Assembly (NCBI GenBank): GCA_002717915.1
Contig: PBCV01000032.1
Coordinates: 1-17,913, forward strand
Origin: Fidelibacterota bacterium
Lineage (GTDB): Bacteria > Fidelibacterota > Marinisomatia > Marinisomatales > UBA1611
DNA: 17,913 nucleotides
Direction of reading: 5' to 3'
Shown: positions 13,606 through 17,913 of the stretch, one piece after another
How the letters are laid out: each line of letters starts with the position of its first letter
Position numbering within the stretch: position 1 is the stretch's first letter
The notes under the pieces: generated by a model
What the model was told of the DNA's origin: nothing
Databases searched by the model: none
The model's input: only the letters and a program-made list of their open reading frames with translations
Translations under genes and position numbers: made by a program

Positions 13606-14796
13606 TTAAATGGTTCTGAGTTCTTTAAGCAGTAAATAGCCAACCGAAGCGCAGAGTCCTAAAAACATCATAAAAAGTGTAATAAATGTCCTCATTGGTT
13701 TTGATTTTTCCACTGCAGGTTCAGCTATATCTAAAATATTCACTAATAAATTCTCCTTTGCTTCATCTATCTTTGCAATTTCCAATTGTTGAAGCAGTGT
13801 GATATAGACCGCTTTATTTTCATCAATATTGCTGTTCAATCTCTGTTCCTGCATTCTAAGTTCAGCTGTAACGGATTGAGGAACTTCTTTTTTAAACTCT
13901 ATCCAATTTTGCTCTGATTGTGTAAGGTTAATTTTTGCTTTTTTTGTTTGTTTTTCTACAAATTCGAGATTTCTTTTCGCTTCCCGGTGTTGTTCATAAG
14001 AAATAAACTTTTTTACAAAATCAGAAATATAGTTTGCAACATCAGCCGCAAGTTGGGGTTCTTCCATTAGTACTGAAACGGTGATCAATCCTGTTATATC
14101 TTCCTTTATTGATATCAAATCATTCAATTTTAATATTGCTTCGTGTGTAAACTTCTCCAAACTGTCAGATTCTGCATTATTAATTGGAAGAAGTTTTAAT
14201 AACCATTCCCTGGGATTTAAAAAAGTTGGCTTATCAATTTCCCAGTATTTAATAAGATTGACTTTTTCGGAGTATAATCCAGTTTCCCACTCTTGCAGAA
14301 CAACATCCTTTTTCAGCCTTCTGCTATTAATGATATCTGGAATATTATACGTAGGAGAGTTTCCCAGACTGTTAATACCAAATGTTTGTGCAAGCCCGGT
14401 GAAATCGCCAAACATCCCGCCAGACTGGCTCAACTCTCCTGCAGGGTAAAGCGATATGAAAGAACCGAAATAAACTGTGGCAACAAGTGCATACGTGATT
14501 CCAACTATGGTGAAAATAGAAGTCACTTTTGCTATGAACCATTTATGGTTTGAAAAAACTTTTGCAATAGCCCACAAATCCAATTCTCCATTCTGAAGAA
14601 TTTTCTGCGATTTTTCACTATCACCATTTAAAGTAATTATTCCGCGTTTTTTTAATTCTGCAATTCTATTTCTTAGAGTTTTTTCAGATAGATTATAGAG
14701 TTCCGCGATTTCTGTTCTTTTTTCAGAATTATCTAGAATCTCTGGATGGCTCTTTAAAATATCGAGAATTTTTTGTTCGTGGGGTGATAATTTCAA
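13606..14796 (-). CDS. Wzz-like polysaccharide co-polymerase with N-terminal winged helix-turn-helix
   Basis: The 396-residue protein joins two modules. Residues 1-58 look like a winged helix DNA-binding domain: an initial helix (HEQKILDILK), a second helix (RTEIAELYN), a turn, a recognition helix (SEKTLRNRIAELKKRG) and a short wing (IITLNG). After a 12-residue linker comes a Wzz-type chain-length protein: the pre-membrane segment DLWAIAKVFSNHKWF, membrane helix 1 (87-110), a large periplasmic part with a helical region (245-350), the motif IAEPAVEKSKPMRT (357-370) and membrane helix 2 (368-391). The Wzz topology puts the N-terminus in the cytoplasm, where it could meet DNA. There is no C-terminal kinase domain. 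The start is a TTG, one base after the Wza-like gene stop, with an AGGT Shine-Dalgarno-like site eight bases before. No other in-frame start exists before the next stop, and the frame is continuous. Confidence 0.88.
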   Translation of the reverse strand: MKLSPHEQKILDILKSHPEILDNSEKRTEIAELYNLSEKTLRNRIAELKKRGIITLNGDSEKSQKILQNGELDLWAIAKVFSNHKWFIAKVTSIFTIVGITYALVATVYFGSFISLYPAGELSQSGGMFGDFTGLAQTFGINSLGNSPTYNIPDIINSRRLKKDVVLQEWETGLYSEKVNLIKYWEIDKPTFLNPREWLLKLLPINNAESDSLEKFTHEAILKLNDLISIKEDITGLITVSVLMEEPQLAADVANYISDFVKKFISYEQHREAKRNLEFVEKQTKKAKINLTQSEQNWIEFKKEVPQSVTAELRMQEQRLNSNIDENKAVYITLLQQLEIAKIDEAKENLLVNILDIAEPAVEKSKPMRTFITLFMMFLGLCASVGYLLLKELRTI

Positions 14797-14797
14797 A

Positions 14798-16471
14798 TTA
14801 TGGACCTATTGCATTTTGGATAACTACAATCAAGGCAGCTGCATTCCCCAGTGTTGCTAGGATATCTTTAAAAAGAATCCATCTATTATATTCGAGCCTG
14901 TCAGGGATAAAAATAGTGTCTCCGTTTTCAATAGAAATCGATTTTCTAATGGGTAATCTCTGCCCAGTGCCTGCTTTAATGATAAACCTTTTCCGTGTTG
15001 CAGTATCCGTAAATCCGCCTGCCAATTCAACATAATCACTGTATGCTAAATGGGATGAAAAGGGATAACGCCCAGGTTTTGAAACAGCTCCCAGGACTTC
15101 AATGTAATTAAAATTTTCAGGTATATATATTTCATCATTTTTTATGACATTCAATTCCATAAGAGACTGTGCATGGTCTAAAGACGTGGATTCTATCGTA
15201 CCTTTCTCTGTAAGCATCCTGGCTTTAATGTATGATTTCTCTTCCGCGGATCGGTTTTCCTCGGGGATAATAAGTATTCGGTCTTTTTCACGATCGGGAA
15301 TGCTTGAGATGGATTTGTTATTGATAAAAAGTTTTGTTTTATCTGCTTTGGATGTATATCCACCTGCTTTTTCCAAAACTTCGCCAATTTTTGTATTCCC
15401 AACATCAATAGCGTAGACTCCTGGATATTTTACTTCACCTTTTACATATACAATATCCTGACGTTTATAATCCTGTTCATACCTAATCATAATATGATCT
15501 TCAGGTGAAAGAATTATAGTATTGGCATCGGCCATTGTTGTTGTGAAAGTGTATTTTTCGGTTGGCGATGTAAAACGGGTAATTTGTATCTTGTTTGGGT
15601 CTGCATCCGGCCGTAATCCACCTGCCAGTTTGATAATGTGGGCTAATGATTCACCACGAACAAATTCATAATCTCCAGGAATTTTTATACCGCCGAATAC
15701 TCCCACTATATGATCCATAAGTGGAATTAATACTATATCTCCTTGGTGCAAGAAAGGGTTATTGATATCACTCCCAGTAGAACCAAACTCCAAAAGATCA
15801 ACCTTCAGGCTGTCATCGTTGCGCAGGATCGTTAGATTTCTTCTTGATAGTTCTGGGTAATTCAGTTCTTCATCGTTGATATCATCTTCATTATCATTCT
15901 CATCTTTTTCTTCATCTTGTTCAGTTTCTTGTGCTTCAATGTCATCCAGTTCTAATTCTGACATTATTTCCTGGTATAGATCTGAAACCCGGGAAACGGG
16001 CGTAACAGTATAAAGTCCTGGTTGCTGCAAATGTCCGATGACCTTTATTTTAAATTCGCGTATCTCTGATAAAAGAATATGGATCTTTGCACTTGGGTTA
16101 AGTTTTTGAATGGAATCTTCTATTCTTTCTTTTGCTGTAAAAAGATATAAACCATCTAAGTGAACAATTCCCACAGAGGGAATTAATATTTTTCCTGATG
16201 GTGAAACAGCAAGGGTATAAGTGAAAATATCTTCACTTGAAATTATGTTAACATTGAACTCATCGCCCGGGCCGACAATATATTTAGTCTCGTCAATTGC
16301 TTGGTCGACAATTACTTTCGCTTTAGTTTGGGTTACAGTTGAAAGGCCACTGTTCCCGAGGGTATTGGAACCCTGCTTCAATTGAGCCATACGAAGAGCA
16401 TTAATATCAAGCGTTTGTGCTTCAGAAAAAGCATAAACGCATATTGCTATGAATATGAATTTATTTTTCAC
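14798..16471 (-). CDS. Wza-like polysaccharide export protein with several SLBB domains
   Basis: Probable periplasmic/outer-membrane export channel component for the polysaccharide. Numbering here is from the longer TTG start at 16513 (571 residues). A Poly_export domain begins at YIVGPGDEFNVNI (78-90). SLBB-type repeats follow at about IKVIGHLQQPGLYTV (156-170), VFGGIKIPGDYEFV (272-285), VYVKGEVKYPGVYAI (355-369) and IEVLGAVSKPGRYPF (471-485), the last three ending in AGG(L/Y/F). A C-terminal hydrophobic helix (546-568) closes the protein. Between the first and second repeats lies a strongly acidic insert (184-217). The preferred start is the GTG at 16471: it gives a compact signal peptide (KNK, hydrophobic core, SEA-Q cleavage site) and a 557-residue protein. 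The TTG at 16513 adds 14 polar residues. No lipobox cysteine is in a canonical setting. It is the first gene of the operon. Confidence 0.92.
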   Translation of the reverse strand: MKNKFIFIAICVYAFSEAQTLDINALRMAQLKQGSNTLGNSGLSTVTQTKAKVIVDQAIDETKYIVGPGDEFNVNIISSEDIFTYTLAVSPSGKILIPSVGIVHLDGLYLFTAKERIEDSIQKLNPSAKIHILLSEIREFKIKVIGHLQQPGLYTVTPVSRVSDLYQEIMSELELDDIEAQETEQDEEKDENDNEDDINDEELNYPELSRRNLTILRNDDSLKVDLLEFGSTGSDINNPFLHQGDIVLIPLMDHIVGVFGGIKIPGDYEFVRGESLAHIIKLAGGLRPDADPNKIQITRFTSPTEKYTFTTTMADANTIILSPEDHIMIRYEQDYKRQDIVYVKGEVKYPGVYAIDVGNTKIGEVLEKAGGYTSKADKTKLFINNKSISSIPDREKDRILIIPEENRSAEEKSYIKARMLTEKGTIESTSLDHAQSLMELNVIKNDEIYIPENFNYIEVLGAVSKPGRYPFSSHLAYSDYVELAGGFTDTATRKRFIIKAGTGQRLPIRKSISIENGDTIFIPDRLEYNRWILFKDILATLGNAAALIVVIQNAIGP

Positions 16472-16566
16472 TGATTTGTTGGATTTACTCGCCGAGGTCT
16501 CGACAGGAGACAAGGAATTACTGCTGCCCGAACGAATGTTCTATTACTTATATTGCCTTTTTTTGT

Positions 16567-16584
16567 TAAACTGGGCGCAGTTTA
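16567..16584. promoter_or_regulatory. Inverted repeat over the -10/start region (operator candidate)
   Basis: A perfect 7-bp inverted repeat, TAAACTG-CGCC-CAGTTTA on the - strand, shares four bases with the predicted -10 box and runs to about +8. That is a classic place for a repressor operator. As RNA it could also form a short hairpin at the very 5' end. On the - strand it is followed by A residues rather than T, so it is not an intrinsic terminator for the operon. Confidence 0.45.
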
Positions 16585-16608
16585 TATCGATAGTATTCCT
16601 TGTGTGAA
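16581..16608 (-). promoter_or_regulatory. Sigma70-like promoter of the polysaccharide operon
   Basis: Reading on the - strand, TTCACA (16608-16603; five of six matches to TTGACA) is followed after exactly 16 bases by TATAAA (16586-16581; five of six matches to TATAAT). Transcription would start near 16574, about 100 bases before the GTG start of the Wza-like gene. It is the best-formed promoter seen in the intergenic region. If the host uses a Bacteroidetes-type sigma factor this match would mean less. Confidence 0.5.
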
Positions 16609-16657
16609 TAACAAAACTTATTCTAGAAAAGTTATTAATCCAAATTATTCTTCGCCC

Positions 16658-16680
16658 GGGCAATTGCCCAAAATATTTTG
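16658..16680. repeat. Two adjacent 12-bp perfect palindromes
   Basis: GGGCAATTGCCC (16658-16669) and CAAAATATTTTG (16669-16680) are both perfect palindromes and share one C. They lie about 50 bases upstream of the -35 box of the polysaccharide operon promoter and 71 bases before the serS start. The GC-rich one stands out from its AT-rich surroundings. Binding of a dimeric regulator is possible. Neither has a T tract that would make it a terminator. Confidence 0.45.
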
Positions 16681-16741
16681 ATTTAGCCATAAGATTAGTA
16701 ATGAACTATTATTCAAAATAAATTATTCCCATAATTATTGA

Positions 16742-17913
<1,172 letters not shown>

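Follow-up and report, generated by a model that had tools for sequence, protein, structure and literature searches.

Regulators of the ToxR/CadC kind combine a cytoplasmic DNA-binding domain, a membrane helix and a periplasmic domain in one chain and act with no kinase step, and polysaccharide chain-length proteins (PCPs) of the Wzz and Wzc types are ring oligomers. It is poorly understood how cells adjust the production of capsule or O-antigen enzymes to the condition of their membrane assembly machine. In group B Streptococcus the N-terminus of CpsA, a capsule-assembly membrane protein, is reported in the available part of PMC8875755 to bind the capsule operon promoter. For Csa3a, the available part of PMC8699464 describes three strictly conserved recognition-helix residues, E173, K174 and N178, whose position suits base-specific contacts. 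Titles and abstract openings listed in searches of an open-access library yielded no PCP–HTH fusion, no DNA binding by a PCP and no report of the site described below.

Here we describe a gene in which a winged helix-turn-helix (wHTH) is joined to a PCP (wHTH-PCP), found in the window, that is, the whole analysed stretch of 17,913 nucleotides, which is contig 32 of a 1.28-Mb assembly, 72% complete. In this case the chain-length component of the assembly machine itself appears to act as the regulator, with a defined candidate target of 8 bp.

The wHTH-PCP gene, its protein and its relatives

The gene, its domains and its upstream neighbor are as follows:

14796..13606, minus strand: wHTH-PCP fusion gene, a single 396-codon frame (396 aa) that starts with TTG at 14796
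14623..14796, minus strand: N-terminal winged helix-turn-helix, residues 1–58 (Pfam HTH_24 slightly below cut-off; Csa3 wHTH profile match)
14647..14688, minus strand: recognition helix S37–K50, SEKTLRNRIAELKK (alignment to Csa3; E38, K39 and N43 correspond to Csa3a E173, K174 and N178)
13609..14589, minus strand: PCP body (Wzz + GNVR), residues 70–396 (Pfam and PDB sequence matches)
14470..14538, minus strand: first membrane helix, approximately residues 87–109 (hydropathy; the Wzz profile begins at 71)
13624..13689, minus strand: second membrane helix, approximately residues 370–391 (hydropathy; the GNVR profile reaches 392)
14798..16471, minus strand: wza-like polysaccharide export gene (Poly_export + SLBB), probable GTG start at 16471 (TTG at 16513 in the ORF list)

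The chain thus runs from the winged helix through a linker and the first membrane helix to the Wzz/GNVR body and the second membrane helix. Wzz (PF02706, residues 71–166, 25.9 bits) and GNVR (PF13807, residues 319–392, 37.4 bits) both exceed their curated cut-offs (25.5 and 27.7, respectively) and, together with the two flanking membrane helices, place the protein among the Wzz/GNVR PCPs; PDB sequence matches of this part are Wzc cryo-EM chains. The C-terminal tyrosine kinase of the Wzc type is absent, as the chain stops after the second membrane helix. With the single wHTH-PCP sequence as query, no HTH family reaches its curated Pfam cut-off: HTH_24 (residues 7–55, E = 1.9e-4) scores 21.4 bits against 21.9, and HTH_Mga (residues 26–49), 21.1 against 23. 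An 18-row wHTH profile compared with PDB sequences gives the Csa3 wHTH as the best relative (E = 3.9e-7). Pfam, PDB and hydropathy data agree with the first-pass annotation of this DNA, which described a winged helix at residues 1–58 and a two-membrane-helix Wzz-like protein in one frame without giving a strand; as to the winged helix, for which the lack of any profile match would have been a warning, the match holds for the 18-row profile and falls short of the Pfam cut-offs for the single sequence. A DNA-binding-type domain and a membrane helix in a single chain also make this protein a transmembrane transcription regulator by architecture, the wHTH being presumably on the cytoplasmic side, as we take from established PCP topology.

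The TTG start lies one base past the stop codon of the wza-like gene. Initiation near residue 72, also at a TTG, is unlikely, because 14 of 15 relatives read have ATG at the wHTH start of the frame (the fifteenth does not fit the reading pattern) and because no other part of the protein is as conserved as the wHTH; this candidate was rejected, and with it the earlier reservation that translation might begin downstream of residue 60.

Of the 40 fetched loci, 38 include sequence upstream of the wHTH-PCP gene, and in every one of these the first long gene encountered there is wza-like, in L065 after 535 bases; in L082 and L090 the fetched sequence holds no upstream gene. On the 3' side wzx-, wzy- and glycosyltransferase-like genes follow, and on the 5' side, wza and then a divergent serS (named by eye). 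Pfam matches in the window include SLBB/Poly_export, Polysacc_synt_3 and GT4 families, and an O-antigen ligase-like match at 30.8 bits, slightly below the cut-off of 31. This is the content of a PCP locus with wza, wzx, wzy and glycosyltransferases, and the gene order is similar in relatives.

Homologues of the wHTH-PCP number 434 at E ≤ 1e-3, and the best 120 of the 434 align over 94–100% of the query at 52–99% identity. Named relatives among the matches listed belong to Ca. Marinimicrobia/Neomarinimicrobiota, which places the window's genome as a MAG of that phylum, and one match is named Flavobacteriales; Ca. Marinimicrobia is an abundant marine phylum, largely uncultured. At E ≤ 1e-3, a wHTH-only profile has matches in 64 of the 245 genomes examined from the phylum. 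Strong matches (E < 1e-20) occupy 61 places in 60 of the 245 genomes, from the window's order and one genome elsewhere (G081), and nearly all are PCP-size frames, a few being cut short (e.g., 100, 150, and 265 aa). Spread beyond the phylum was addressed by a single scan of genome contigs, which gave two loci. Mean identity over 170 homologues is 0.71 in residues 5–58, 0.56 in residues 70–160 and 0.53 in residues 161–396. Judged by these comparisons the fusion is old, and its recurrence, with a strong wHTH in 60 of 245 genomes, answers the earlier concern that homologues might consistently lack the domain. Two atypical copies were also seen: P0166, which ends in an EF-G C-terminal domain (PF00679) and is probably a chimeric contig, and L178 (G196:C6), seemingly broken, with a wHTH frame of 100 aa and, on the opposite strand, a piece of a PCP, perhaps through an assembly fault.

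Within the recognition helix, all 170 homologues, gathered without using the helix string, have E38, K39, T40, R42, N43 and R44, and 169 have L41; another count, 47/47, comes from rows found by the string EKTLRN and is circular for those letters. In the profile match SEKTLINKIAELKK of Csa3 is aligned with SEKTLRNRIAELKK, and in a second class of PCPs the recognition helix is identical. An N-terminal CARF domain as in Csa3 is not seen among the Pfam/NCBIfam matches of the wHTH-PCP, in which the wHTH itself is N-terminal.

The GCCCGGGC palindrome at wHTH-PCP loci

Gibbs sampling over 16 serS–wza intergenic regions identifies GCCCGGGC in all 16, often as GGGC-N4-GCCCGGGC, with a motif score of 24.1 bits compared to 11.2–11.6 in four shuffles. 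The surroundings of the site are far less conserved, save for promoter-like and leader blocks, and in 13 of the 16 aligned regions the site is located about 8 bp before the promoter-like block. The features of this kind in the window are:

16654..16669, read on the minus strand: candidate operator 1, GGGC-N4-GCCCGGGC, core palindrome 16654–16661 (motif discovery)
16265..16272: candidate operator 2, GCCCGGGC in the wza GPGD codons, 389 bp from operator 1 (synonymous-codon test)
16612..16645, minus strand: possible promoter ATTTGG...TAAGTTTTG, a conserved alignment block immediately downstream of operator 1
16568..16601, minus strand: conserved leader block AAGGAATACTATCGATATAAACTGCGCCCAGTTT, between the possible promoter and wza (alignment)

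The region 16472–16750, named in the first-pass annotation for a binding test of the N-terminal domain, does hold a conserved candidate operator. The possible promoter resembles, in our judgment, the Bacteroidota –33/–7 type. The leader block has no Rfam match up to E = 1; it could be an antitermination or leader element.

Where wza adjoins serS, the exact site is present in 20 of 21 genomes, and G119 has one mismatch. None of seven serS upstream regions without wza within 700 bases carries it (an eighth showed only 171 bases and a ninth, 2), and a link to serS was rejected on this ground: GCCCGGGC follows wza and the PCP with the wHTH, not the neighboring serS. A second site lies inside wza, whose GPGD motif is spelled GGC CCG GGC in 16 of 17 genes; at a mean wza identity of 0.46, these three codons stand out most strongly in synonymous use among 135 columns (p from 1e-13 to 4e-11, the next being 2e-4). 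The distance between the two sites is 373–449 bp in 15 loci and 233 bp in L089, and L077 has only the first site. In genera g3 and g69 (six wHTH genomes) GGGC-N3-GCCCGGGC is found in the wza signal-peptide codons in all six, written GGC x GCC CGG with codon fractions of 0.15, 0.085 and 0.033; the GPGD codons are not of the GGC CCG GGC kind in five readable loci, and no near match to the site was found within 3 kb. In family f12 the site directly precedes the wza start (3/3).

In other families, the PCP gene is part of a long one-strand gene run, approximately 14–16 kb downstream of a wide gap where this was fetched (the long-operon type). A codon scan of 1831 columns, with serine columns set aside as the AGY/TCN split ranks them high (one is the first row), gives CCC GGG of the EPGL motif of ugd (UDP-glucose dehydrogenase, named by eye) as the top outliers (18/18 and 16/20). 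GCCCGGGC occupies the EPGL or the later ARA codons of ugd in 16 of 24 genomes and lies still further into ugd in G127; in genus g14 it is in the ARA codons of the gene preceding ugd (3/3), bringing the total with a site in either gene to 20 of the 24. Second sites are often 7-of-8 matches, e.g., ACCCGGGC at EPGL where the exact site is at ARA, 163 bp on, and TCCCGGGC in g14, 279 bp on. In G112 and G151 there is no exact site but a pair of 7-of-8 matches separated by 366 bp, G052 has a site 5.6 kb upstream, and no site was found in the wHTH genomes G023 and G129. Coding coincidence as the origin of the sites in wza (GPGD) and ugd (EPGL, ARA) was rejected, and these sites are counted, because the codon tests and the ugd control given below show conservation at the nucleotide level. 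Motif searches in the gaps and promoters of the long-operon type gave only a riboswitch-like block and coding motifs; a conserved GTTCCCGC or CCCCGC...TACTGT block, which we take to resemble a cobalamin riboswitch, is present in the wide gap before the long gene run at L182, L187–L190, L192–L194, and L199.

Altogether, 44 of 49 loci have GCCCGGGC (66 copies) no more than 4.5 kb upstream from the wHTH, the loci being anchored on the string EKTLRN, coming from 49 of the 60 wHTH genomes (the others had too little upstream sequence or were unfetched), including the 16 discovery loci and L170, fetched because of its site, and not being independent draws, as many genomes are related; five of the 49 had 2.4–3.3 kb upstream instead of 4.5. 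At least two exact copies are present in 21 of the 49 and one in 23, g3/g69 among the latter. Outside motif discovery, 28 of 33 loci have the site. The other 15 G/C palindromes occur in 0–3 of the 49 loci each, under the same 4.5-kb limit, which was chosen after the site positions were known.

Control ugd loci from genomes without the wHTH (2.5–4.2 kb long) contain the site in two of 30, both with GC content of at least 0.49; three of the 30 do not fit the codon reading pattern but were searched whole for the 8-mer. At GC below 0.42 the comparison is 38 of 41 wHTH loci versus none of 17 control ugd loci, and at 0.42 or above the contrast is weaker, 6 of 8 versus 2 of 13. Other PCP loci without the wHTH carry the site in two of 43; these overlap in part, have a mean length of 3.9 kb and are mostly shorter.

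The 8-mer occurs ten times in the window's genome, twice at this locus, and the reversed 8-mer, five times. GGGCN3-4GCCCGGGC occurs there once, so control by the wHTH-PCP looks local. The long motif is present in 23 of 33 family genomes, the reversed pattern in none of them, and in 63 of 245 genomes overall, GC-rich ones included. Hits of GGGCN3GCCCGGGC in G120, G203, G119, G145, and G200 were rejected as a regulon, since they fall in one homologous long coding gene; further hits are at G214:C13, G215:C30, and G209:C3. In two g69 genomes (L165, G214:C13, and L166, G215:C30) GGGCACTGCCCGGGC is observed away from the PCP locus, in L165 between long frames.

Other HTH heads and the exchange of PCP bodies

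Among 130 genomes we find 103 GNVR frames, of which 19 were set apart as kinase-size or fragments (16 of at least 690 aa, taken as kinase fusions by size alone, and three by eye). The remaining 84 non-kinase-size PCP frames of the order comprise 56 with the wHTH, 11 with another HTH and 17 with no HTH, 10 of these 17 being judged by length alone. A Phage_CI_repr/YdaS-like HTH is fused to PCPs (PF02706 + PF13807) in L104, L105, L111, L117, and L118, and a divergent form of it, in L106, L113, L114, L115, and L243; L116 has an XRE HTH_3 (35 bits, cut-off 23). Head families were searched with L118/L021, L117/L020, and L116/L016, and the other heads were read by eye and aligned. With the CI-like alignment as query, 786 proteins are found, and among the best 120 of the 786 many have PF07022, PF15943 or PF12728 beside the PCP domains. 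Five genomes with CI-like or XRE heads (G052, G056, G105, G109, and G216) also have the wHTH type. Two side observations concern these loci: the type-2b HTH-PCPs of L243 (G216:C101) and L113 (G109:C50) are identical over 424/424 residues between two families, and the genes that follow them have similar beginnings, pointing to recent transfer or a contaminating contig; and near the CI-type locus L118 (7210–7851) there is what we take, by eye, to be a NusG/RfaH/UpxY-like protein.

In a quick tree of 56 PCP bodies with heads removed, the 24 wHTH rows need eight label changes, five of them forced by starred branches, and an AU test rejects a single clade for wHTH-bearing bodies (p = 3.06e-6). Bodies of the window's class fall with the head-less PCPs L011 and L012, and those of the second class, with other head-less PCPs. 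On this tree, PCP bodies are exchanged under a kept wHTH head, and the repeated appearance of unrelated HTH heads on PCPs suggests that the solution arose more than once.

Proposed membrane-anchored control, its alternatives and known systems

The fusion, its conservation and the association of the site with the wHTH are shown by comparison of sequences. The palindrome, the invariant helix and their joint presence across changed bodies and gene surroundings make the wHTH a likely sequence-specific reader of GCCCGGGC at its own locus. We interpret the wHTH-PCP as a membrane-anchored autoregulator of its own polysaccharide locus and give this reading a probability of about two in three. The cytoplasmic N-terminal winged helix would bind GCCCGGGC, with GGGC as the half-site, which would be kept at the PCP's own surface-polysaccharide locus, near or inside the upstream export or precursor genes. 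The sites appear to be often paired, approximately 160–570 bp apart, one of the pair being a 7-of-8 match in several genera, and, because Wzz/Wzc-type PCPs are ring oligomers, one membrane ring could present several wHTHs, grip both sites at once and loop the DNA at the membrane. DNA binding, ring, loop and the sign of control are here what we infer; the result would be feedback control of polysaccharide genes by their own chain-length protein, and we favor feedback repression over activation or a tether. Such a one-component membrane regulator would act in the manner of ToxR/CadC, as the first-pass annotation had supposed; that reading has gained a recurrent fusion, a probable DNA-reading helix and a candidate operator at the own locus, and its further element, the sensing of the polymerisation state by the periplasmic part, is speculative.

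One point against autoregulation is that the site shifts position, preceding the possible promoter in some loci and lying within wza, ugd or the gene ahead of ugd in others, a pattern that fits no single promoter mechanism. Shifts among in-gene positions, from the wza signal peptide to wza GPGD, ugd and the gene before ugd, are expected if only the presence of the site at the locus matters, that is, if the PCP ring binds the transcribed operon and keeps it where assembly takes place in the membrane, so that transcription and translation of Wza, Wzx, and Wzy would be coupled to their insertion and the transcription rate would hardly change. Such a membrane tether would also accord with the nearly invariant helix, with the frequency of the site at wHTH loci and with the lack of a visible regulon in the window's genome, but the serS–wza type keeps its near-constant place before the promoter-like block, which fits transcription control, and we consider a mere tether rather unlikely. 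A broader form of the autoregulator is offered tentatively, at somewhat less than even odds: the ring may be a DNA-bridging hub on paired GCCCGGGC sites that anchors and gates its own genes, head and site being kept while the body is exchanged, and the CI-like and XRE heads, some in the same genomes, may be private readers of their loci.

As association differs from binding, the site might belong to another factor or process, such as a soluble regulator, a recombination or cassette-exchange signal, or an RNA element, with the wHTH having a different target or binding protein. Recombination acts at the locus, where PCP bodies are exchanged under one head, and GGGC-N4-GCCC could form an RNA hairpin. 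However, the site is tied to the wHTH in the comparison with the ugd and the mostly shorter other PCP loci, wHTH and site are both kept in L078 and L170, whose PCP body is of the second type, the palindrome is retained where the hairpin half is lost, and the leader block gave no Rfam match; this explanation seems improbable. It is very improbable that the wHTH persists only as a fold that binds no DNA and serves as an adaptor, structural or for proteins, making contacts inside the ring or to Wzy/Wzx: winged helices can bind protein and residues 1–58 have a net charge of only +2, but the invariant residues are counterparts of base-contact residues, unrelated DNA-binding HTHs (CI-like, XRE) occupy the same place in other PCPs, and the candidate operator tracks the wHTH, so the non-DNA role allowed for in the first-pass annotation is now unlikely.

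The preferred reading, autoregulation from the membrane, suggests that a sugar-assembly machine may control or tie down its own genes, and the question is testable in vitro with a 66-residue domain and short DNA.

Among known systems, the wHTH-PCP resembles Wzz/PCP-1 and Wzc-type PCPs (PF02706 + PF13807) in its two membrane helices with Wzz and GNVR, and its locus resembles theirs in having wza immediately before the gene and wzx/wzy-like and glycosyltransferase genes behind it; the protein differs from them in the N-terminal DNA-binding-type domain and in having no tyrosine kinase. Csa3, with a MarR-like wHTH (available parts of PMC8699464 and PMC8844856), shares the helix SEKTL-N-IAELKK, with the base-contact positions common to both, and a binding site with palindromes, as in the candidate site here, but it is a CARF protein, and the likeness is confined to the wHTH (profile positions 28–62). 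With ToxR, TcpP, and CadC, as covered in the available part of the transmembrane-regulator survey PMC10269533, the wHTH-PCP shares the one-chain layout, and it differs in having a polysaccharide assembly protein, with a second membrane helix, as its periplasmic part; neither "Wzz" nor "chain length" appears in the main text of the survey, as far as it was available. CpsA is alike in being an assembly protein of the membrane with reported N-terminal promoter binding, such as is proposed for the wHTH-PCP, but belongs to the LytR-CpsA-Psr (LCP) family and not to the PCPs. By membership, then, the wHTH-PCP is a Wzz/GNVR PCP, though one that would work like the ToxR/CadC regulators and CpsA.
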